Assembly (NCBI RefSeq): GCF_001477655.1
Contig: NZ_CP011266.1
Span: 1,100,001-1,164,000 of the forward strand
Origin: Methanobrevibacter millerae
GTDB lineage: Archaea; Methanobacteriota; Methanobacteria; Methanobacteriales; Methanobacteriaceae
Reading direction: 5' to 3'
Length of the DNA: 64,000 nt
Position 1 is the stretch's first letter, and each line of letters begins with the position of its first letter. The position numbers were made by a program, and so were the translations under genes. The notes under the pieces are model-generated. The model ran no database searches. It was not told the DNA's origin and saw only the letters and a program-made list of their open reading frames with translations. Positions 1-41,576 of the stretch are shown here, one piece after another.

Positions 1-3000
1 GTGGAATTTATAAATATTACATTACCAAAAGATGCTACAGGTTATGTCTTGTTGACTGTTGACGGTGCTCATTACTATGCAGATGTCATTGATGGTGTAG
101 CTAAGTTTAATGTAACCGGTCTGCTTGTAGATGAGCATGACGTGAATGTTACTTATATGGGTGATAATAATTACAACATTTCATCAACTTCATTTAAAGT
201 AAACATATCCAAAATCACAACATTAATAGAGATAGCTGGTGAAAACATTATTGTTGGCCAGGGCATTACATTAATCATAAAAACGTCTGAAGATATTTCT
301 GACTTGGTAACTATTAATATTGGCAATAATAACTACACAACATTCATAAGTAAAGGTAAAGGTAATTTGACAGTTTATGATTTGAATGTTGGTAAGTATA
401 CAGCTACTGTTTATTATAATGGTGATGATACTTATAATAAAGCTGAAAATAAAACTTCATTTGAAGTAACCAATAAAAAAGCTTCAAATGTATCAATATC
501 TGTTAATAATATTGTTGTAGGTCAAGATGAAATCATTACCGTTAGGGTTACTGCCGGAGCTACAGGTAATGTAACTATTGTAATTAGAGGAAGGGGGTAT
601 GTTGAAACATTAAATAATGGTGTGGCAAGATTCACTATTTCTGATTTATCCGCAAGGGATTATGAAGTTACAGCTATTTACAATGGTGATGAAAATTATT
701 TGGCAAGTCAAAACACTGCTAAATTCACTGTAAGCAAATTAAATCTTGATGTTATTGTAACTGCTCAAAATATTACTGCAGGCAGCACTGAAAACATAGA
801 AATTAATTTATCCGAAAACGAAAATGGTATTGTTTTAGTCAATGTAGGTTCCAATGGATATTATGTGAATATTACGGATGGTAATGGAGTATTAATATTA
901 AATCACTTAAATGCAGGTGATTTTAATGTTTCTGCTGTATTTTTAGGTGATGACAAGTATAATTCCCAATCAAATGTAACTTCATTCACTGTTAAACCTG
1001 TTACTGATGAGGATATTAAAATCAATGTTGATGATGAAAATAAAACTATCATTATTGAAGTGCCAGGAAATCAAACAGGTAATGTGACTGTTATTATTGA
1101 TGGTAAAAACGTAACCGGAGAAGTTATTAATAATACTATTGTTGTTAACATTACTGATTTACTTCCGGGAAATCACACAATTGAAGTCATCTACGGTGAT
1201 AAAAACTACACTGTCTATGAGAATACAACTGATATTGTAATTCCAAAAGTCGATGATTATCCATTTGATGTGGATGTTGCTGTTGATGGCAATAATGTGG
1301 AATTTTCTGTAAATCTGCCAAAAGATACTAATGGTGTTGTTTTAGTTGATGTTGATGGTAAAGGTTACTACATGAATGTCACAAATGGTGCTGGTAAATT
1401 ACTATTAACTGACTTGAATAAGGGAACATATGATGTCGGTATTAAATATCCTGGTGATAATAAATATGCTGAAGTTAAAAAATCCACTTCATTCACTATT
1501 GAAAGCGGACGTGCCACTCCTATTGATATTAATGCAGAAGATATTAATGTTGGAGATAATTTAACAGTCAAGGTTATTGTTCCTGGTGATGCTAAAGGTA
1601 ATGCTGTTGTTGAAATTAATGGTAAAACTTATACTTCTCCAATCAACAACGGTATAGCTGAATTCAATATTCCAGGTTTGAATGAAGGTAATTATACAAT
1701 TAAAGCAACATTTGCCGGTGATGCTAAATATCCTGCTAATTCCACTTCAACTACGGTTCAAGTATCTAAAGTGAAAGATTATCCAATGAATGTCACTGTT
1801 GATGGAAAAGATATTACAATCAACCTTCCGGAAGATGCTGAAGGAAACGTTACCGTAATCGTTGATGGCAAGAATTATACAGCTAAAGCCGAAAATGGTA
1901 CTGCAACCATTAAAGTGGATGATTTAAAACCAGGAAAACATAACATAACAGTAAGTTACGGTGATGAGAAATATTCACCTAAAACAAACACTTCTATTAT
2001 AGATGTTGCAAATAAATTGTTCATTGATGCTCCTGCTGTTGTTAAATATTACTCAGGACCAGAAAGATTCTATGTATATCTCGAAGATATGAACGGTAAA
2101 AAGATTGCTAATGCCAACATAACAATTACTGTCAATGGTGTAAGTTATAGCAGAACCACTAATGAAAACGGTACTGCTTCTATTGCTATTAGTTTAAATA
2201 GTGGAGAATATCTAGTAACCGTTACATTCAAAGGTAATTCTGAATTTAATCAAACATCAGTATCATCCAGTATTACAGTTAATCCAACAATTTATGCCGA
2301 TGATGTATTCAAAGTATTTAGAAATGGAACTCACTACTATGCATTATTCACAGATGCTCAAGGTAATCCATTGTCAAATGCTGAAGTGTCATTCAATATT
2401 CATGGTGTATTCTACACTAGAACCACTAATGCTACTGGATGGGCAAAATTGAACATTAACCTTGAAAAAGGAACATATATATTGACTGCTATTAATCCGG
2501 TTACCAAGGAAATGAGAACCAATAACGTAACTGTAATATCATTAATTGTTGAAAATTATGATATAACCAAATACTTCCGTAATGGAACTCAATTTGTTGC
2601 TAGAATTGTTGCTGATAACGGATCATATGCTGGTGCTGGTGAAAAGGTAACATTCAATATTAATGGTGTTTTCTACACCCGTGTAACTGATGAAAATGGA
2701 TATGTTAGATTGAATATTAATATTGAACCTGGACAATATATCATTACTACATATTACAAAGACTGCCGTGAAAGCAATACTATTATTGTATTGCCTACGC
2801 TTATAGCGGATGACATGAAAATGAGTTATCATGATGGTTCTCAGTTTGTAGTTCATTTGTTGGATGGACAAGGTAAACCTTATCCAAATCAGCTCATTAA
2901 TTTCAACATCCATGGTATAATCTACAACAGATTAACTGATAGCAATGGTGATGCTAAATTAAGTATTAACTTACAAAGTGGTGAATATTTAATCACATCA

Positions 3001-3045
3001 ACTTATGGTGCAGCAAAACTTTCAAACAAAATTACTATAGTTTAG
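1..3045 (+). CDS. adhesin-like surface protein, 3' part (5' end outside window)
   Basis: The last 1014 codons of a giant secreted surface protein. The first codon, GTG, is an internal valine: VEFxxxLPKD recurs later in the protein (near residue 437), so the gene continues upstream. Residues 1 to about 670 are tandem Ig-like modules of roughly 85-95 residues, each ending in a Y-x-G-D-x-x-Y motif typical of bacterial Ig-like repeats. Residues 673-1014 are four related repeats with the core FNI(N/H)GVxYxRxT and LNINL, the same cassette found in the genes at 11.5 and 35.6 kb. There are many N-x-S/T sites and no C-terminal membrane segment. By analogy with adhesin-like proteins of Methanobrevibacter it probably sits on the pseudomurein wall and mediates attachment; this is inference. 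Confidence 0.85.
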   Translation: MEFINITLPKDATGYVLLTVDGAHYYADVIDGVAKFNVTGLLVDEHDVNVTYMGDNNYNISSTSFKVNISKITTLIEIAGENIIVGQGITLIIKTSEDISDLVTINIGNNNYTTFISKGKGNLTVYDLNVGKYTATVYYNGDDTYNKAENKTSFEVTNKKASNVSISVNNIVVGQDEIITVRVTAGATGNVTIVIRGRGYVETLNNGVARFTISDLSARDYEVTAIYNGDENYLASQNTAKFTVSKLNLDVIVTAQNITAGSTENIEINLSENENGIVLVNVGSNGYYVNITDGNGVLILNHLNAGDFNVSAVFLGDDKYNSQSNVTSFTVKPVTDEDIKINVDDENKTIIIEVPGNQTGNVTVIIDGKNVTGEVINNTIVVNITDLLPGNHTIEVIYGDKNYTVYENTTDIVIPKVDDYPFDVDVAVDGNNVEFSVNLPKDTNGVVLVDVDGKGYYMNVTNGAGKLLLTDLNKGTYDVGIKYPGDNKYAEVKKSTSFTIESGRATPIDINAEDINVGDNLTVKVIVPGDAKGNAVVEINGKTYTSPINNGIAEFNIPGLNEGNYTIKATFAGDAKYPANSTSTTVQVSKVKDYPMNVTVDGKDITINLPEDAEGNVTVIVDGKNYTAKAENGTATIKVDDLKPGKHNITVSYGDEKYSPKTNTSIIDVANKLFIDAPAVVKYYSGPERFYVYLEDMNGKKIANANITITVNGVSYSRTTNENGTASIAISLNSGEYLVTVTFKGNSEFNQTSVSSSITVNPTIYADDVFKVFRNGTHYYALFTDAQGNPLSNAEVSFNIHGVFYTRTTNATGWAKLNINLEKGTYILTAINPVTKEMRTNNVTVISLIVENYDITKYFRNGTQFVARIVADNGSYAGAGEKVTFNINGVFYTRVTDENGYVRLNINIEPGQYIITTYYKDCRESNTIIVLPTLIADDMKMSYHDGSQFVVHLLDGQGKPYPNQLINFNIHGIIYNRLTDSNGDAKLSINLQSGEYLITSTYGAAKLSNKITIV
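2017..3042 (+). repeat. C-terminal surface-protein cassette, copy 1
   Basis: Four protein repeats of about 80-90 residues that start with a K-Y-(Y/F)-R-N-G-like segment and contain FNINGVxYxR and LNINL. The second repeat carries NPVTKEM, matching NPVTGEM and NPSTSEM at the same place in the copies at about 11.72 and 39.69 kb, so the repeats keep their order between genes. It may be a wall-binding or sorting module. Confidence 0.7.
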
Positions 3046-11542: not shown

Positions 11543-12751
11543 TTGTTTATTGTTTCTATTTCTTCAGTATCTGCAAGTGCTGATTTAAATCAAACAATAA
11601 GCGATGAAAGTACGGACACAGTGGGTGCATCTTATAGTGATGGAAGTATTCTGTCAGATTCAAATGATTTTGGGTTTGGCAATATTACTCCTGATATAAT
11701 TAAGAACATTACTGCAGATGTCATTGATTTGAATGTTCCTGATGTCACAAAGTATTATGGTGGTTCTGAAAATCTTGAAATTTCATTTAAATTATTTAAC
11801 CAGACAATGAAAAATGCTTCTCTTAAAATAACTCTTAATGGTGTGGATTATTATAAAACTACAAATGATGAGGGAAAAACTTCCTTAGCTCTTAATCTGG
11901 ATTCAGGCGTCTATGATGCTCGTGTTTCATATATGTATATTTTAACTCAAAAAGCTAAAGTAACAATCAATCCAACTGTCGAGGGAAAAGATTTGATTAA
12001 GATGTATGGAAATGCATCAAAATACTATGCAAAATTCATTGATTCTCAAGGTCAAATCTTAAAAAATACTGATGTCAAATTCAATATAAACGGTGTTCAA
12101 TATACAAGAAAAACTAATGGGTCAGGTATTGCAGGTTTAAACATTAATTTAAATCATGGTGAATATATTATAACAGCCACTAATCCTGTAACAGGGGAAA
12201 TGCATTCAAATAATATTTTCATATCAGTATCTATTGTGGAAAATAATGATTTAACCAAATATTACAGGAATGCATCACAGTATTCCGTAAGGCTTATGGA
12301 TGATAATGGAAATCCTGTTGGAAAAGGGGTTTCAGCATTATTCAATATTAACGGTGTATTTTATAATAGAACCAGTGATGAAAATGGTTATGTAAAATTA
12401 AACATCAATTTAAGACCTGGAGATTATATCATAACTGCTGAATATAATGGATATAAGGTTTCTAACAACATTAAAGTTTTACCTGTTCTTGTCGGGTCTG
12501 ATTTAACTAAACAAGTCTTTGATTTAACACCATTTTCCGTTAAATTGGTTGATGGTCAAGGTTTTCCTTTAATTGGTAAGGTAATAACATTAAATATCAA
12601 TGGTGTCATGTATAATCGTACCACTGACCTTTTAGGTTATGCCAGATTGAACATTAACCTATGGCCTGGCCAATACATTGTCACTTCAATGTATGCTGAA
12701 AATGGCGCAATCACTTCAAATAAAGTAACCATTACTTCAATTTTCGGTTAA
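11543..12751 (+). CDS. mini adhesin-like surface protein (cassette only), start region damaged
   Basis: About 402 residues from TTG 11543. After a hydrophobic stretch ending VSASA (signal-peptide cleavage type) and a short polar linker, the protein consists of the four-repeat C-terminal cassette also found in the giant surface proteins. The expected start, ATG 11505, opens MKVRNF but hits TAA at 11538-11540. Adding one T in the T run at 11519-11523 would join it in frame to FILCLILFIVSISSVSASA, a normal signal peptide. So either translation starts at TTG 11543 with a shortened signal, or one base has been lost here by mutation or assembly error. A TATA-like element lies near 11465. Confidence 0.75.
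   Translation: MFIVSISSVSASADLNQTISDESTDTVGASYSDGSILSDSNDFGFGNITPDIIKNITADVIDLNVPDVTKYYGGSENLEISFKLFNQTMKNASLKITLNGVDYYKTTNDEGKTSLALNLDSGVYDARVSYMYILTQKAKVTINPTVEGKDLIKMYGNASKYYAKFIDSQGQILKNTDVKFNINGVQYTRKTNGSGIAGLNINLNHGEYIITATNPVTGEMHSNNIFISVSIVENNDLTKYYRNASQYSVRLMDDNGNPVGKGVSALFNINGVFYNRTSDENGYVKLNINLRPGDYIITAEYNGYKVSNNIKVLPVLVGSDLTKQVFDLTPFSVKLVDGQGFPLIGKVITLNINGVMYNRTTDLLGYARLNINLWPGQYIVTSMYAENGAITSNKVTITSIFG
11720..12748 (+). repeat. C-terminal surface-protein cassette, copy 2
   Basis: Four repeats in the same order as copies 1 and 3: a first repeat with LTLNG-like core, a second with NPVTGEM, a third opening VENNDLTKYYRN, and a fourth ending in LWPGQYIVTS. It makes up nearly the whole mature protein. 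Confidence 0.7.
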
Positions 12752-33284: not shown

Positions 33285-33350
33285 GTAACCAAACCGTCAC
33301 CAAATGCTTAAATACAATAAAAAAGCCTTTTTAATTTACAGGTGATTAAT

Positions 33351-33899
33351 ATGACTGTAAATTTAGAAGGCAGTAAAACTGAAAAAAATCTTTTAAAGGC
33401 TCTTCAGGGAGAGGCACTTGCCCGTGTAAAATATGAGTTTTACTCAAGCAAGGCAAAAAAAGACGGATACGTTCAATTATCTGAAATTTTCAAAGAAGCT
33501 TCAGATAATGAAAAAGAACATGCAAAGGTATGGTTCAAGCTATTGCATGGTGGTGAAGTTAATGATACTTTATCCAACCTTGATGAGGCTATTGAAACTG
33601 AAGAGTATGAATGGTCTGATATGTATATGAATTTTGCTCATGACGCTAAAAAGGAAGGCTTCAGTGATATTGCTCATCTTTTTGAGTTAACTGCAGCAAT
33701 CGAAAGGTCACATGAGCGAATCTACAAATCCTTTGTTAAAAATATTAAAAATGATTGTGTGTTTGAAAAACCTGATGAAATTGTCTGGAAATGTGGAAAC
33801 TGCGGTAATTTGCACTATTCCAAAACCGCACCGGAAACATGTCCGATGTGTGATCATCCGCAATCATACTACAGAAAATTAGATGAAAGTTACAAGTAA
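33351..33899 (+). CDS. rbr: rubrerythrin
   Basis: 182 residues from ATG 33351 with AGGTGAT just upstream. A four-helix ferritin-like diiron domain (ExxxxxxY... EHAKVWFKLL ... ERSHERIY) is followed by a C-terminal rubredoxin domain (WKCGNCG, CPMCDHPQSYY). It reduces hydrogen peroxide in anaerobes. It fits with F420H2 oxidase as oxidative-stress defence. The short spacer has a TATA-like element near 33307. Confidence 0.92.
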   Translation: MTVNLEGSKTEKNLLKALQGEALARVKYEFYSSKAKKDGYVQLSEIFKEASDNEKEHAKVWFKLLHGGEVNDTLSNLDEAIETEEYEWSDMYMNFAHDAKKEGFSDIAHLFELTAAIERSHERIYKSFVKNIKNDCVFEKPDEIVWKCGNCGNLHYSKTAPETCPMCDHPQSYYRKLDESYK

Positions 33900-33970
33900 T
33901 CTAATTTTTCTTTTTTTCATAAATTATATATCATACTATTGACTAAAAGTATATTCAAAAAGTTGATAAT

Positions 33971-35383
33971 ATGATAGAGAATAATATCTGTTTATTGACT
34001 GATTCCTATAAGATAACCCATCACTACTTCTATCCAAAAGGTACAAAAAAGATATATTCTTACCTTGAAAGTAGAGTTGGAGCTGAGTTTAATAAAACTA
34101 TATTCTATGGGCTTCAGTACATAATCAAAAAGTATTTGAAAGGTAAAGTTGTAAGTCAGGAAAAGATTGACGAAGCTGATAATCTTATGCAGACTCATCT
34201 TGGAGAAGGTATTTTTAACCGCGAAGGCTGGCAGTACATATTGGACGAATTTGATGGAATGCTTCCTATTGAAATCAAGGCTGTTCCTGAGGGAACTCCT
34301 GTTGATGTGGGCAATGTATTGATGACAGTTGAAAATACTGACGATAAATGTTACTGGCTAGTGAATTATCTTGAGTCATTGCTGTTGCAGGTATGGTATC
34401 CATCCACCATTGCTACATTATCTGCTGAGGTAAGAAAATTGGCCAATTTCTATTTGGATGTTACGGGTTCAGATAAAAGCAATCTGGATTTCATGTTGCA
34501 TGATTTCGGTTATCGTGGAGCAACATCAACAGAATCATCAATGCTTTGTGGATCCGCTCATTTACTGAGTTTTTCAGGTACTGACACAATTCCTGCATTA
34601 ACGATACCTGAAAATTATTATAATGACTCAGAAGTATATGGATTTTCAGTTCAGGCAACAGAACACAGCGTCATGACCTCCTTGGGTCAGGATGGTGAAA
34701 TTCAGCAGGCATTGAATGTCATTGAAAATGCAAAGAACGGTATTCTTTCCATGGTTATTGACAGCTATGACTATAGAAACTTCCTGATACAGGCATCAAC
34801 TGAAGGAAGCGAACTGAATGATGCAATCTTGAAATTTTTATCCGTCGACGGCAATAAGGTTGTCTTCAGGCCGGATAGCGGTGAGCCTGTATCTACAACC
34901 ATTGACTGTTTGAACATATTGGAAAGTGGTTTTGGAAGCTATGACACTGAAAGTGGATATAAGGTGTTTGATGCTAACATTGGCCTTTTGTGGGGAGATG
35001 GCCTTAACTATCACAAGATTAGAGATATTCTCTTTGCAATGAAATCCAATGGATGGGCTGCTGAAAATATTATCTTTGGTATGGGCGGAGGGCTTCACAG
35101 CTCTGTTAATCGTGATACTCAGCGCAACGCCTTCAAATGTTCTGCACAATTGAGGGATGGTCAATGGTTTGACATCTTTAAAAATCCGTTGGACTCCAGT
35201 AAGAAATCTAAAACAGGTAGATTTAAACTTATTGAAGATGATGGTTCTTTTAAAACAATTTCAATTGATGATGAGGGTGATGACATTCTTCGCACTGTCT
35301 TTAAGGATGGAAAACTGCTTGTCGATGAAAAATATTGTGATGTTAAATTGAGGGCACAAAATTATTCCAAATATTCAATTTAA
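33971..35383 (+). CDS. nadV: nicotinamide phosphoribosyltransferase (NAMPT/NadV type)
   Basis: 470 residues. LTDSYKITHHYFYPKGTKK, YSYLESR, FYGLQYIIKKYL, HDFGYRGATSTESS and VFRPDSGEP follow the NAMPT pattern rather than the PncB nicotinate type. It would convert nicotinamide and PRPP to NMN, a one-step salvage to NAD. The family is mainly bacterial, phage and animal, so the gene may have come by transfer. An NAD kinase gene lies at 56 kb. Specificity for nicotinamide over nicotinate is inferred from family. Confidence 0.8.
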   Translation: MIENNICLLTDSYKITHHYFYPKGTKKIYSYLESRVGAEFNKTIFYGLQYIIKKYLKGKVVSQEKIDEADNLMQTHLGEGIFNREGWQYILDEFDGMLPIEIKAVPEGTPVDVGNVLMTVENTDDKCYWLVNYLESLLLQVWYPSTIATLSAEVRKLANFYLDVTGSDKSNLDFMLHDFGYRGATSTESSMLCGSAHLLSFSGTDTIPALTIPENYYNDSEVYGFSVQATEHSVMTSLGQDGEIQQALNVIENAKNGILSMVIDSYDYRNFLIQASTEGSELNDAILKFLSVDGNKVVFRPDSGEPVSTTIDCLNILESGFGSYDTESGYKVFDANIGLLWGDGLNYHKIRDILFAMKSNGWAAENIIFGMGGGLHSSVNRDTQRNAFKCSAQLRDGQWFDIFKNPLDSSKKSKTGRFKLIEDDGSFKTISIDDEGDDILRTVFKDGKLLVDEKYCDVKLRAQNYSKYSI

Positions 35384-35632
35384 TTTTTCATTCACTTTTT
35401 TTTAAATTTTTTATCATTTTCATCATATTTTTTTATTTTTATAATTATTCCTTCTATTTTCTATTTATAACTTGGTTATTATGGATATTGTTCATATTTA
35501 AGCTTGTTTAAATGTTTTTTTAGATTAAATTAAGTTTTTTAATACATTTTTAGATTAAAATTTAATACTACTACTTTTTATACTATGAATAATAAATGTA
35601 TAATTAATATTTGAAAAAATGGAGGCTTTAAA
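35384..35632 (+). promoter_or_regulatory. AT-rich spacer and promoter of the large surface-protein gene
   Basis: T-rich stretches after nadV may terminate transcription. A TATA-like element near 35576-35584 and ATGGAGGC at about 35619-35626 (ribosome binding site) precede the TTG start at 35633. I see no other feature. Confidence 0.35.
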
Positions 35633-38600
35633 TTGTTTAATAAATTCAATTTTTCGCTGATAATTATTGCAATATTCTTATTATTTATTGTTTTAATTCC
35701 TTCTTCCATAGCTTTTGAGTTAGAAGAAGGTGATAATATTACCTCTCGAGTAATTGAAGAAGAAGAGATTGTTTTAACTAGTTCCAAATCAAATGATATT
35801 TATTTTGATGTTTCCGCTCCAAGTGGTGGTGATGGTTCAAAAGGCAATCCCTATAATCAATTTAAACAACAGTATATTAGAAATGATGCAATTATTCATT
35901 TGGCAAAAGGAGATTACTTTTTAGATACAACTATTTCAGCCCAATACAATAATTTAACTGTTTATGGTGCGGGAATGGACAAGACATTCATAACAAGCCA
36001 TCATGCATTAACAATAAAGCATTTTTATTTGTCTGATTTGACATTGTCCGGAGTTAACATTATAAACCATGGAACAATTGACATTAGAAATGTTTGCATA
36101 GAAGATGCGAAGGCAAATGTACATGATCAGTATAATAACTCTTTTGGGGGAGCTATCTATAACCCTGGGGAGCATTATGATCCGTATTTATACTTGACGA
36201 ACTGTATTTTTAAAAACAACTCTGCCATGTACGGCGGAGCACTTTACATGACTTATGGCCATTTAAAAATTATCAACACCACCTTTGAATCAAACACTGC
36301 TTATAATTATGGGGGCGCAATTGCCGCAGGTGCAAACTCAAAAATTGAAATTTATGATTCTGATTTTATTAACGACAAATCCATTAAGGATTCTGGTGGT
36401 GCAATTTATTTCAGATATGCTGATGTAAAAATATCCAATTCTAATTTTATCAATTGTTATGGTCAATTTGGTGGTGCAATTTGTGATTTAGGTGCAAACA
36501 CTACAATTTCAAATTCAAAATTCACAGGCAATAGGGCTTCATATAGGGGCGGAGCCATTTACTCATTATATGGTAAATTCTTTGTAAATGACTGTGATTT
36601 TAGAAATAATCATGGAAAAAATGGTGGAGCAATATTTTTGGATAACGCTACTTCACACTATATTACCACTTCACTTTTCATTTCCAACACTGCTGATGTC
36701 TGTGGTGGAGGAATATATTCTATTTTAAATATAATTCCATCCAATGCAGGCAACTACTATGCAAATAACAAAGCACAGGAAAGTAACGATTTGTATGTAA
36801 CACACAATATTAATTTATGGCTTGGAGATGGAAATTATACTATGATTGTAAGCGACCATATCCGTGAGGAAATATCATACATTCCTTCATATTATAATCT
36901 GGTTAATTATGGTTTAGTCACTCCAGTTAAAGACCAGGAAACAAGTGGGGACTGCTGGGCATTTTCAGCAATTGCAGCATTGGAATCATGCCTTTTAAAG
37001 GCTACTGGTGTTACTTATGATTTATCTGAAGAAAACATGAAAAATTTAATCAGCCTTTATTCTGATTATGGATGGAACATGGAAACGAATAAGGGCGGTT
37101 TTGATACAATGGCACTTGGATATCTGACAAGTTGGTTAGGGCCAGTGTTTGAATCTGAAGATGAATTCGATGACCATTCCACATTATCCCCTGTTCTTCA
37201 TTCAAAATTCCATATTCAGGATGTCCTTTCATTATCCAGAAAGTCCTATACAGATAATGCTGATATAAAAAAGGCTATCATGAAATACGGTGCCGTTGCA
37301 AGCGGATTATATAATGATGATGCATATTTGAATAAGAATAAGGCTTCCTATTATTATAATGGAAATCAGATTACCAATCATGCAGTCACAATTGTCGGAT
37401 GGGATGATACATACTCAAGATATAATTTTAATAATGTTCCTCAAGGAAATGGAGCTTGGATTTGTAAAAATAGCTGGGGACCTAACTGGGGAAACAATGG
37501 ATACTTCTATGTTTCATATTATGATACAAAACTTGCAGAAATAGGCAAATTGCACTCTGCTTATACATTCATATTTAACAATACCATTGATTTGGATAAG
37601 AATTATCAATATGATGTTATTGGACTCACTGACTTTTTGGCAACTGGAAAAAATACTGTTTGGTATAAAAACGTTTTCAAAGCCACTGATAACGAACTGC
37701 TGGCCGCATTTTCATCATATATCAATGATGAAAGTGATTATCAGGTACAGGTTTATGTAAACAATGAACTCAAGTTCTCCCAGAATGGTGTTTCACCTGA
37801 AGGATATTATACTTATAAATTGGATAAGTTCATTCCATTATATACCGGAGACGTTTTTGAAATCGTCGTTAAATTAACAACAAAGGATATTGTAAGCATT
37901 CCTATTTCAGAAAGCAAATATACAAATAAGTACATCTATGATAAAGGAATGTCCTATATCAGCTATGATGGAAAAACTTGGACAGATTTATATGAATTGA
38001 AATTAGGGTCAGCACATTCTCAAGTAGCATGTATTAAGGCATTTACAACTCTGGAAACATTAAACACTGTTATTTCAATGCCTGATTATTCAATAGAATC
38101 TGGAAAAATTGTTACCCTTGAAGCTAATGTCTTGGATGCCCATAACAATAGGGTTACATTGGGCAGTGTAACATTCAATATTGATGGAAATGAGTATGTT
38201 GTTGATGTCAATGATGGAAAAGCCACGTTCAATTACAGATTTTCAAATGAAGGTACATATAACGTTAAGGCAACATACCACGGCCTACACTATAATCCTT
38301 CATCGGTCTCATCTACAGTAACTGTTGAAGAGATTTATTCATCAACAAAGATTTCTTTGGCATTCAATTCAGTTAGGGCAGGCGAAAATGTCAGGATAAC
38401 TGCAACTGTTCTTGATTCAAACAATAATAAACTGAACACAGGTACTGTCACATTCACAACTAACGGCAGGAGCCAAACTGTTAATGTAAATAATGGTGTT
38501 GCCGTATTTACAACTTCCTATGATAAGGCCGGAAGCTATGATATCACAGCCACATTCAAGGCTTCTCATTATGGCTCTTCAAGTACCAAATCAACAATAA

Positions 38601-40705
38601 CTATAACTCAAGGTGTTTTATCATCTAAAATAACTGCTACGAGTACAGTAACTAACAATAATGTAAGAATCATTGCTGTTGTTAGGGACGCAAATAATAA
38701 TCTGGTTTCATCAGGTAAAGTCACTTTCAATATTAACGGAGAAAAATCAGTGGTTGATGTAACTAGAGGGCAGGCTGTTTTAAATACTGTTCTTCCGCGC
38801 AGCTCAACGGTTTATTTATCTTTTGAGGGTAGTAACTATCTTTCTTCAACAACTTCAATAAGGGTGGAAGTTTCTGATATGCCTTCCTCAAAAATAACAT
38901 TGACTAATATGGAAGTGAATGTTGGAAATTATGTAAATATTGTAGCAACAGTCACAGATTCCAGCAATAATCCGATTAATGGAGGGACTGTCAGCTTCAC
39001 AGTTGATGGAAAAACCACGAATATTGGTGTTTCAAATGGAAAAGCAACTTTAACAACATCATTTTCAAAATCAGGATTATTTGGAGTAACTGCAGTTTAT
39101 ACAGGCAATTCTTATTCTTCATCATCTGCAAAATCAACTATAACAGTTAAGGATAGAATAAGTTCATCCAAAATAACTGTTAGTGATGTTACAGCCGGCG
39201 CTGGTAAAAGCGTAAGCATTGTTGCTCGCGTTGTTGATTCCAATAATAATTTGGTAAACAGTGGAACTGTTAATTTTATTGTAAACTCAAAGTCAACAAC
39301 TGTTGGTGTGAGTAATGGTGTTGCAACATTCATCACTTCATTTGATAAATCGGGAACTTATAATTTGCTTTCAACATTTTCAGGAAATAATTATCTGTCC
39401 AGTTCAACCAATTCAAAAATAATTGTTGAAAAAAACACAATTTCAGTCACATTATCTATTGGAGATGCGACATATGGATCAAGTAATGTTGCAGTAATAA
39501 CATCAGATGTTGCATTTAATGGATTATTGAATGTTGGAGGAAGTGTTTATTCTGTGTATGTTAACAATGGAGTTACAAGATTCACTATTCCTTCAAAATT
39601 GTCCGTAGGAAGTTATAAAGGAATTTTAACATACTCTGGTGATGATAAGTATAATCCAATAAGTATTAATGATAAATTTATAGTTACTGGCGATGATTTT
39701 TCATTAGTTGCAAAGGATATTGTTATGTATTATAAGGATGGAACCAGATTGGGTGCTTATTTGTATGACAGTAATGGTCGTCCTTTAGCAAATAATACTG
39801 TTACATTTTCCCTCCAGGGCATTGACTATTCAAAGACCACAAATCAGAATGGTTATTCATCAATTGCAATTAATTTGAACTCTGGAAAATATGTTGCAGT
39901 AGTCAAACATGCTTCTTCAAGCAAGTCTGTCACTATTGAAGTAAAATCCACAGTCATAGCCGATGATGTAACTAAATATTATCGCAATGATACACAATTT
40001 TATGCAACAATTTTGGATAAGAACGGCAATTCTGTGAAAAATACTGTTGTTAAAATGAATATTAATGGAGTAATCTATGAAAAAACCACTAATAATCAGG
40101 GCATAGTAAAATTAAACCTGAATCTTGTGCCAAATACTTATATTTTGACTGTAACAAATCCATCTACATCTGAAATGGCAACCAGTATTGTTAAAATACT
40201 TCCAAGACTTGTAGAAAACCATGATTTGGTAAAATATTATCGCAACGCTTCAAGATATAGTGTTAAAGTTTTATCCAAATCAGGTAATGCGGAGGTTGGA
40301 AAAACAGTTACATTCAATATTAATGGAGTATTTTACCAACGTGTAACCAATTCGGAGGGTGTTGCAAGTCTTAATATTAATTTGGGACCAGATACTTATA
40401 TTATAACTGCAGAATATGATGAATCAAGAGTATCTAATAAAATCACGGTATTGAATATTTTAAAAGCCAATGATCTTATTAAAAGATATGGGACTTCATC
40501 TCAGTTTACAGTAACACTTTTGGACGGCAACGGTAGATTATATGCAAATCAGGTAATCAAATTTAATATTAACGGTGTATTTTATGAAAGAATTACCAAT
40601 GCTAATGGTGTTGCCAGTTTAAACATTAATCTGCAAGCGGGAAAATACATTATTACTTCATCATACAATGGATTGAACTTAGCAAATACTGTTACAATAT
40701 ATTAG
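35633..40705 (+). CDS. large surface protein: beta-helix, papain-family peptidase, Ig-like repeats, C-terminal cassette
   Basis: 1690 residues from TTG 35633 with GGAGG 8 bp upstream. The signal peptide is residues 1-28. Residues about 60-390 are beta-helix repeats with recurrent GGAIY/GGALY turns. A C1 (papain) peptidase domain spans about 420-650: Q435, nucleophile C441 in GDCWAFSA, H583 in NHAVTIVGW and N613 in CKNSWGPNWG are all present, so it should be active. Residues about 810-1340 are six or so Ig-like modules, and from about 1353 the four-repeat cassette follows. It is probably a wall-bound protease-adhesin. The target could be host or microbial protein or a pseudomurein peptide; neither is shown by sequence. 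Confidence 0.88.
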   Translation: MFNKFNFSLIIIAIFLLFIVLIPSSIAFELEEGDNITSRVIEEEEIVLTSSKSNDIYFDVSAPSGGDGSKGNPYNQFKQQYIRNDAIIHLAKGDYFLDTTISAQYNNLTVYGAGMDKTFITSHHALTIKHFYLSDLTLSGVNIINHGTIDIRNVCIEDAKANVHDQYNNSFGGAIYNPGEHYDPYLYLTNCIFKNNSAMYGGALYMTYGHLKIINTTFESNTAYNYGGAIAAGANSKIEIYDSDFINDKSIKDSGGAIYFRYADVKISNSNFINCYGQFGGAICDLGANTTISNSKFTGNRASYRGGAIYSLYGKFFVNDCDFRNNHGKNGGAIFLDNATSHYITTSLFISNTADVCGGGIYSILNIIPSNAGNYYANNKAQESNDLYVTHNINLWLGDGNYTMIVSDHIREEISYIPSYYNLVNYGLVTPVKDQETSGDCWAFSAIAALESCLLKATGVTYDLSEENMKNLISLYSDYGWNMETNKGGFDTMALGYLTSWLGPVFESEDEFDDHSTLSPVLHSKFHIQDVLSLSRKSYTDNADIKKAIMKYGAVASGLYNDDAYLNKNKASYYYNGNQITNHAVTIVGWDDTYSRYNFNNVPQGNGAWICKNSWGPNWGNNGYFYVSYYDTKLAEIGKLHSAYTFIFNNTIDLDKNYQYDVIGLTDFLATGKNTVWYKNVFKATDNELLAAFSSYINDESDYQVQVYVNNELKFSQNGVSPEGYYTYKLDKFIPLYTGDVFEIVVKLTTKDIVSIPISESKYTNKYIYDKGMSYISYDGKTWTDLYELKLGSAHSQVACIKAFTTLETLNTVISMPDYSIESGKIVTLEANVLDAHNNRVTLGSVTFNIDGNEYVVDVNDGKATFNYRFSNEGTYNVKATYHGLHYNPSSVSSTVTVEEIYSSTKISLAFNSVRAGENVRITATVLDSNNNKLNTGTVTFTTNGRSQTVNVNNGVAVFTTSYDKAGSYDITATFKASHYGSSSTKSTITITQGVLSSKITATSTVTNNNVRIIAVVRDANNNLVSSGKVTFNINGEKSVVDVTRGQAVLNTVLPRSSTVYLSFEGSNYLSSTTSIRVEVSDMPSSKITLTNMEVNVGNYVNIVATVTDSSNNPINGGTVSFTVDGKTTNIGVSNGKATLTTSFSKSGLFGVTAVYTGNSYSSSSAKSTITVKDRISSSKITVSDVTAGAGKSVSIVARVVDSNNNLVNSGTVNFIVNSKSTTVGVSNGVATFITSFDKSGTYNLLSTFSGNNYLSSSTNSKIIVEKNTISVTLSIGDATYGSSNVAVITSDVAFNGLLNVGGSVYSVYVNNGVTRFTIPSKLSVGSYKGILTYSGDDKYNPISINDKFIVTGDDFSLVAKDIVMYYKDGTRLGAYLYDSNGRPLANNTVTFSLQGIDYSKTTNQNGYSSIAINLNSGKYVAVVKHASSSKSVTIEVKSTVIADDVTKYYRNDTQFYATILDKNGNSVKNTVVKMNINGVIYEKTTNNQGIVKLNLNLVPNTYILTVTNPSTSEMATSIVKILPRLVENHDLVKYYRNASRYSVKVLSKSGNAEVGKTVTFNINGVFYQRVTNSEGVASLNINLGPDTYIITAEYDESRVSNKITVLNILKANDLIKRYGTSSQFTVTLLDGNGRLYANQVIKFNINGVFYERITNANGVASLNINLQAGKYIITSSYNGLNLANTVTIY
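39690..40702 (+). repeat. C-terminal surface-protein cassette, copy 3
   Basis: Four repeats of the FNINGV-Y-R / LNINL type, in the same order as copies 1 and 2; the second repeat carries NPSTSEM and the third opens VENHDLVKYYRN. Confidence 0.7.
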
Positions 40706-40737
40706 GTTAAAAATAACCTAATTTTTTGTTTTTTTTT
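40702..40737 (+). terminator. hairpin terminator containing the stop codon
   Basis: 8-bp arms TTAGGTTA (40702-40709) and TAACCTAA (40714-40721), a 4-base loop, and a long T tract. The TAG stop codon (40703-40705) lies in the 5' arm. Confidence 0.7.
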
Positions 40738-40754: not shown

Positions 40755-41465
40755 CTATTTGTTGTTAGCTATTAATTTACGGGCTGCTTTTAAGTCAGTA
40801 TTATAAATGTGGCCGGATGTAGAATGGTAATGGATTCCTCCGAAGTTTAATTTTTCACCTATTATCTCTTCATTAAGTTCCTCTTTCATTTTTAAGCCCA
40901 TATATGCTATGAAAAACATATTGGAGTAGAATGCACCATAGATATCATTGCTTCTGAATATGCAGTGAATAGTTAATTCATTGTCACGCACAATGCACTG
41001 TAAAAATTGAAGACAAGGTATATCTTCTGCTTCAGCATCGTCTATTGGATTAATTGTCACTGCAACTGCACGATTTGATCCTGTTGCAGTTAATATTCTT
41101 TTTTTCATGCTTTCAAATTGGTTTACATCAAAATGTGCAAAAATACGGTTTGGGTATGTATATACGAATCCCTGAGTGTTGTTAATAATATCTGGGTCTT
41201 CAACTGATTTAACGTATTCGTACAGGGCATCGCTTTTAATTGGACATCCTTCTAGGTCATATTTTCCGGATTTTATGTCTGACAACATCATTTTGGTTGT
41301 GTAATTTTGATATTTGGCTCTGAATTTCAAGTCCATTGGGTCATCTATAATATAGAAATTACCTAAACTTTCAACTAAATGGTGATTACTATCCTTATAA
41401 GTTTCTTTTCCTTCTTTTAATATTTTATTAACGAAATCTAAATAACATTGATTAATACTTAACAT
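40755..41465 (-). CDS. thyA: archaeal thymidylate synthase-like protein
   Basis: 236 residues from ATG 41465 (AAAGGA upstream; TTG 41474 is an alternative). The C-terminal half follows thymidylate synthase: IPCLQFLQC with the nucleophile cysteine, LTIHCIFRSNDIYGAF (the dUMP-phosphate and FN region) and HYHSTSGHIYNTDL (the HIY motif). It matches the short archaeal type (putative thymidylate synthase of methanogens, about 220-240 residues) that makes dTMP, probably with a folate-like methanopterin cofactor. It converges with the large surface-protein gene. Confidence 0.75.
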   Translation of the reverse strand: MLSINQCYLDFVNKILKEGKETYKDSNHHLVESLGNFYIIDDPMDLKFRAKYQNYTTKMMLSDIKSGKYDLEGCPIKSDALYEYVKSVEDPDIINNTQGFVYTYPNRIFAHFDVNQFESMKKRILTATGSNRAVAVTINPIDDAEAEDIPCLQFLQCIVRDNELTIHCIFRSNDIYGAFYSNMFFIAYMGLKMKEELNEEIIGEKLNFGGIHYHSTSGHIYNTDLKAARKLIANNK

Positions 41466-41576
41466 TGCAAACAATCCTTTTAAATTATATTTTAATTTGT
41501 TTTTGAAATTATAAATATCTGATGTTTTTAATTAAAAAATAAATGCATGTAATAGATGATTAAATCTAATACAATT

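Follow-up and report, generated by a model that had tools for sequence, protein, structure and literature searches.

Results

Gene structure and domain layout

The window analysed here is a stretch of 64,000 nucleotides from Methanobrevibacter millerae (contig NZ_CP011266.1, forward-strand positions 1,100,001 to 1,164,000). Within it, positions 35633-40705 of the plus strand form a single reading frame of 1690 amino acids, the strand and coordinates of which were verified as exact (Table 1). The LFNK N-terminus with its TTG start is seen again in orthologues. With a putative signal peptide, a beta-helix and Ig repeats (Big_3_5/Big_1 by Pfam) the protein has an adhesin-like build, and its domain matches lie well above chance. 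The initial annotation, made from the letters of the sequence, had joined a beta-helix, a papain-family peptidase and Ig repeats in one surface protein and had named Q435, C441, H583 and N613 as the papain site; Pfam confirms the former and all four residues are present in the sequence. It had overlooked the Lectin_like domain (PF18560) that follows the peptidase, the kinship with a clostridial protease, Cwp84, and the protein's place among ten paralogues of a kind known since 2010.

Table 1. Features of the peptidase gene, in positions of the window
Feature	Position	Strand	Basis
Ribosome-binding site GGAGG	35620..35624	+	Sequence; 8 nt 5' of the TTG start
Putative signal peptide, residues 1-27	35633..35713	+	Hydrophobic N-terminus ending ...PSSIAF
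Right-handed beta-helix, residues 55-395, Chlam_PMP repeats	35795..36817	+	Pfam; AlphaFold; weak Foldseek
Linker, residues 396-420, conserved LGDGNY motif	36818..36892	+	Clade alignment
C1A papain-family peptidase, residues 421-632 (Q435, C441, H583, N613)	36893..37528	+	Pfam PF00112; Cwp84/cathepsin matches
Lectin_like domain PF18560, residues 658-805	37604..38047	+	Pfam E 4.7e-23; Cwp84 fold match
Ig-like stalk repeats, about six, residues 812-1355	38066..39697	+	PF16640 / PF02369
C-terminal cassette, residues 1356-1690, four repeats of 75-85 aa	39698..40702	+	Genome-wide recurrence
Terminator-like element that overlaps the stop codon: 9-bp inverted repeat with T run	40701..40727	+	Sequence

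The C-terminal cassette, which had been assigned to the wall, is a recurrent unit whose repeats, similar to Big_1, are common to about 51 open frames across the genome; the binding to the cell wall, by which it would anchor the protein, is the part of that assignment that we infer. The cassette is also found in two other frames of the window, at about 2509-3039 and about 12197-12733.

The peptidase and its kinship with Cwp84

The Peptidase_C1 match of Pfam covers residues 424-632 (E 6.7e-26, 92.2 bits against a gathering cut-off of 20.7). The Q, C and H of the papain site are invariant in all 89 relatives, down to about 35% identity, and the N is kept in 87 of the 89, with D in the other two; this last figure is mildly favoured because the N position forms part of one of the two patterns used in the search, while the positions of Q, C and H were not favoured. 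Across the beta-helix, the peptidase and the lectin-like domain, dN/dS is about 0.04-0.24 wherever dS could be estimated, values that are rough because synonymous sites are near saturation, and selection on the three domains is, judging from these ratios, purifying. Taken together, the retention of the four residues among relatives and the purifying selection suggest that the papain-type peptidase of the 1690-residue protein is probably active.

By sequence, the top match in the PDB is Cwp84 of Clostridioides difficile, with which a profile of nine paralogues aligns through the peptidase into the lectin-like domain (E 9e-49); a PDB search with the lectin-like domain alone gave no real match. 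Since it pairs a C1 peptidase with a Lectin_like domain, the methanogen protein is a relative of Cwp84 (PDB 4ci7, 4d59, 4d5a): in both, a C1A peptidase is followed by a lectin-like domain, and both are surface-anchored, the methanogen protein presumably so. They differ in what lies on either side, for Cwp84 has a short cleavable propeptide where a beta-helix precedes the methanogen peptidase, and CWB2 wall repeats (PF04122), absent from the 1690-residue protein in a Pfam scan, where the latter has Ig repeats and the methanogen cassette. Q110, C116 and H262 of Cwp84 align with Q435, C441 and H583; where papain has its Asn, Cwp84 has Ser294 and our protein N613, and the methanogen site is therefore the more canonical of the two. 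The calcium ligands Leu339 and Glu448 of Cwp84 stand opposite unlike residues where the alignment is poor, and the alignment stops before the ligands Lys460 and Asn487.

An AlphaFold model of residues 28-815 (788 residues, beta-helix included, from a 43-row alignment) has a mean pLDDT of 89.7 and a pTM of 0.88, with pLDDT mostly above 90 in the beta-helix. In Foldseek the model matches 4d59 at a TM of 0.82 over 427 columns that span the peptidase and lectin-like domains, and its matches to mature cathepsins, in which TM to target is mostly 0.7-0.8, show the papain fold. Judged from this predicted fold, which matches Cwp84 and active cathepsins, the initial reading of an apparently active, surface-anchored papain-type peptidase appears sound, and a separation of C441, H583 and N613 from one another, which had been named as the finding that would count against it, is not suggested by these fold matches.

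Paralogues and distribution

The protein is of a kind recorded since 2010. Papain-domain adhesin-like proteins with a conserved C-terminal domain are reported from M. ruminantium (Leahy et al. 2010, PMC2812497), and one adhesin-like papain-domain protein each from M. smithii and M. stadtmanae (PMC11532034); going by the descriptions in the accessible portions of these two papers, they resemble our protein in genus or family, surface location and PF00112, and neither the relationship with Cwp84 nor a beta-helix in propeptide position is described in those portions. Relatives are expressed: in both M. smithii and M. intestini the vesicles are enriched in a peptidase_C1 adhesin-like protein (PMC12134236), and transcripts of two cysteine-protease adhesin-like genes of M. 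ruminantium are up under lauric acid (PMC5816558). In M. millerae (genome of 2.54 Mb, one contig), ten genes with this build are intact and an eleventh has decayed. In the genus Methanobrevibacter, 65 of the 67 genomes contain one match or more and the maximum is 20, and in a sample of the phylum matches were found in 107 of 152 genomes, in seven of 20 genera. Orthologues in six other species share 58-80% identity in the beta-helix.

A beta-helix in the position of the propeptide

The propeptide of Cwp84 first winds around the lectin-like domain and then occupies the active-site cleft (PMC4089489). By homology to that structure, linker residues 396-420 are placed where the propeptide enters the cleft, and the Methanobacteriaceae clade shows a conserved GxGNY segment some 17-25 residues ahead of the peptidase, at a distance that matches the Cwp84 propeptide; by this analogy the linker may serve as the cleft-entering segment. 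Relatives outside the family, with C1 and Lectin_like domains, come from Methanosarcinaceae, Methanomicrobiales, Acidobacteriota, Pelobacter, Syntrophomonas and Lachnospiraceae and carry a short pro-region in the place of the Cwp84 propeptide, with 31-228 residues ahead of the peptidase; the beta-helix is absent from the ten of them that were scanned. Most members from Methanobacteriaceae have the beta-helix, and their peptidase starts at residue 350-500. Nine of the 15 relatives outside the family have a pro-region motif, PxNP[DEAY]F, which none of the 74 within it has. In the tree, 69 rows, all from Methanobacteriaceae, form one group apart from the free-living relatives (midpoint root, support 93); of the other rows from this family, four (L061, L077, L079, L083), with longer N-termini and weak beta-helix/PMP matches, branch separately, and another (L052), with no Pfam beta-helix match, groups with the free-living relatives.

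The nearest kin of the beta-helix are fused to or precede a C1 peptidase in every readable case. The existence of the same beta-helix without a peptidase was considered and rejected, as a peptidase adjoins it in all seven uncertain loci that were examined. In a model whose halves have about 370 and 410 residues, the pTM given above suggests that their relative placement is confidently predicted, with beta-helix and peptidase folding as one unit. A Foldseek search with the beta-helix returned polysaccharide lyases and epimerases, matches that are generic and weak (TM to query at most 0.56), and its conserved residues are nearly all structural, with no conserved catalytic set and no binding site seen. 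A second enzyme in the beta-helix was rejected on these grounds, and the generic likeness to lyases and epimerases together with the missing catalytic set would make a binding role the likelier one.

Discussion

Taken as a whole, the reading that we favour, and regard as reasonably probable, is that of a C1A cysteine endopeptidase of the Cwp84 type that is secreted and anchored to the wall, cuts surface proteins and is fed its substrate by the beta-helix. The protein would be exported by the Sec route and then fixed to the cell wall by its C-terminal repeat cassette, the Ig repeats would carry outwards from the wall a head in which beta-helix, peptidase and lectin-like domain form a unit, and the beta-helix, in the place of the propeptide, would most likely recognise a glycan or glycoprotein and present it to the catalytic cysteine. 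The enzyme might thus trim or shed cell-surface proteins, either its own cell's or those of bound partners. Host mucus proteins or rival cells, both proposed in the initial annotation, may be targets as well. The substrate of Cwp84 is the S-layer precursor, and by this comparison a surface protein would fit better as substrate than pseudomurein. It is tempting, if rather speculative, to suppose in addition that in gut Methanobacteriaceae the beta-helix replaced a propeptide of the Cwp84 type and now forms one fixed unit with the peptidase, whether as a new prodomain or as a substrate-feeding domain, and that the copies, up to 20 per genome, are surface proteases with differing targets. The exchange of a short pro-region for a beta-helix ahead of a peptidase is apparently undescribed so far, and our literature search found no paper on a methanogen peptidase joined to a beta-helix or lectin.

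The same observations could be read in another manner, which we consider unlikely: the protein would be a cleavable zymogen in which a large inhibitory prodomain, the beta-helix, is cut off near residues 405-415 so that an active, anchored peptidase-lectin head is freed. The beta-helix does occupy the place of the cleavable propeptide of Cwp84, the distribution of the pro-region motif and the position of the GxGNY segment agree with such a role, and the pTM suggests that the beta-helix docks. However, no cleavage site was seen, and comparison of the closer orthologues shows stronger conservation in the beta-helix than in the lectin-like domain, in keeping with a working domain.

Quite improbable, in our opinion, is an enzyme of pseudomurein turnover that cuts wall peptide cross-links, a target that the initial annotation had also listed. 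Such turnover was suggested for papain-domain adhesin-like proteins by Leahy et al. 2010 (PMC2812497), and the presumed anchoring by the cassette would place the enzyme at the wall. Nevertheless, nine Methanobacteriaceae genomes, each at least 90% complete, have pseudomurein-binding repeats and no Peptidase_C1 anywhere, which disfavours this role, and the protein has close kin among Methanosarcinaceae, Methanomicrobiales and bacteria. The known pseudomurein-cutting enzymes belong to family C71 (PMC2989375, PMC10318531), the endoisopeptidases of which have a C-H-D triad (PMC2989375), and M. millerae has two C71-like frames of its own. PeiW and PeiP of that family are likewise cysteine peptidases tied to methanogens with pseudomurein walls, but they have their own domain (PF12386), the C-H-D triad and PMBR wall-binding repeats, whereas the triad here is C-H-N and a Pfam scan of the 1690-residue protein found neither PF12386 nor PMBR repeats. 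Less credible still is a catalytically dead adhesin that uses the peptidase fold for binding, for although the overall build is adhesin-like and the multigene family is large, the conservation of Q, C, H and N reported above speaks against it.

Surface proteins of obscure use take up many genes in gut methanogens. A large subset of these proteins are probably active proteases of the Cwp84 type and not merely adhesins, and probably not enzymes of wall turnover. This gives them a testable role, in which methanogens would remodel the surface of their own cells or of bacterial partners, and Cwp84 with its S-layer substrate offers a model for comparison.

Neighbouring genes and variant loci

In the window, a rubrerythrin gene and a nicotinamide phosphoribosyltransferase-like gene (33342-35383) lie between a CCA-adding enzyme-like gene and the peptidase gene; on the contig of one orthologue (L023) these two are absent and the CCA-adding enzyme gene is directly upstream. 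On the other side, a minus-strand frame at 40755-41474 (239 aa) is thymidylate synthase-like, with a weak, divergent PF00303 match (E 5.9e-6). The two C71-like frames of M. millerae carry PMBR repeats (G000:C1 584353-584748 and 946324-946821) and are better candidates for wall-cutting enzymes in this genome. Its decayed paralogue (L022, G000:C1 about 341693-343144) has kept the lectin-like domain, the cassette and the last part of the peptidase but lacks the beta-helix and the start of the peptidase, and another paralogue (L018, 3573-9419; G000:C1 1270809-1271615) shows an apparent internal duplication near the His/Asn segment of the peptidase. Single frames of 1913-2156 residues with two tandem C1-lectin heads each were seen in three other genomes (G036:C58, G012:C25, G050:C92).
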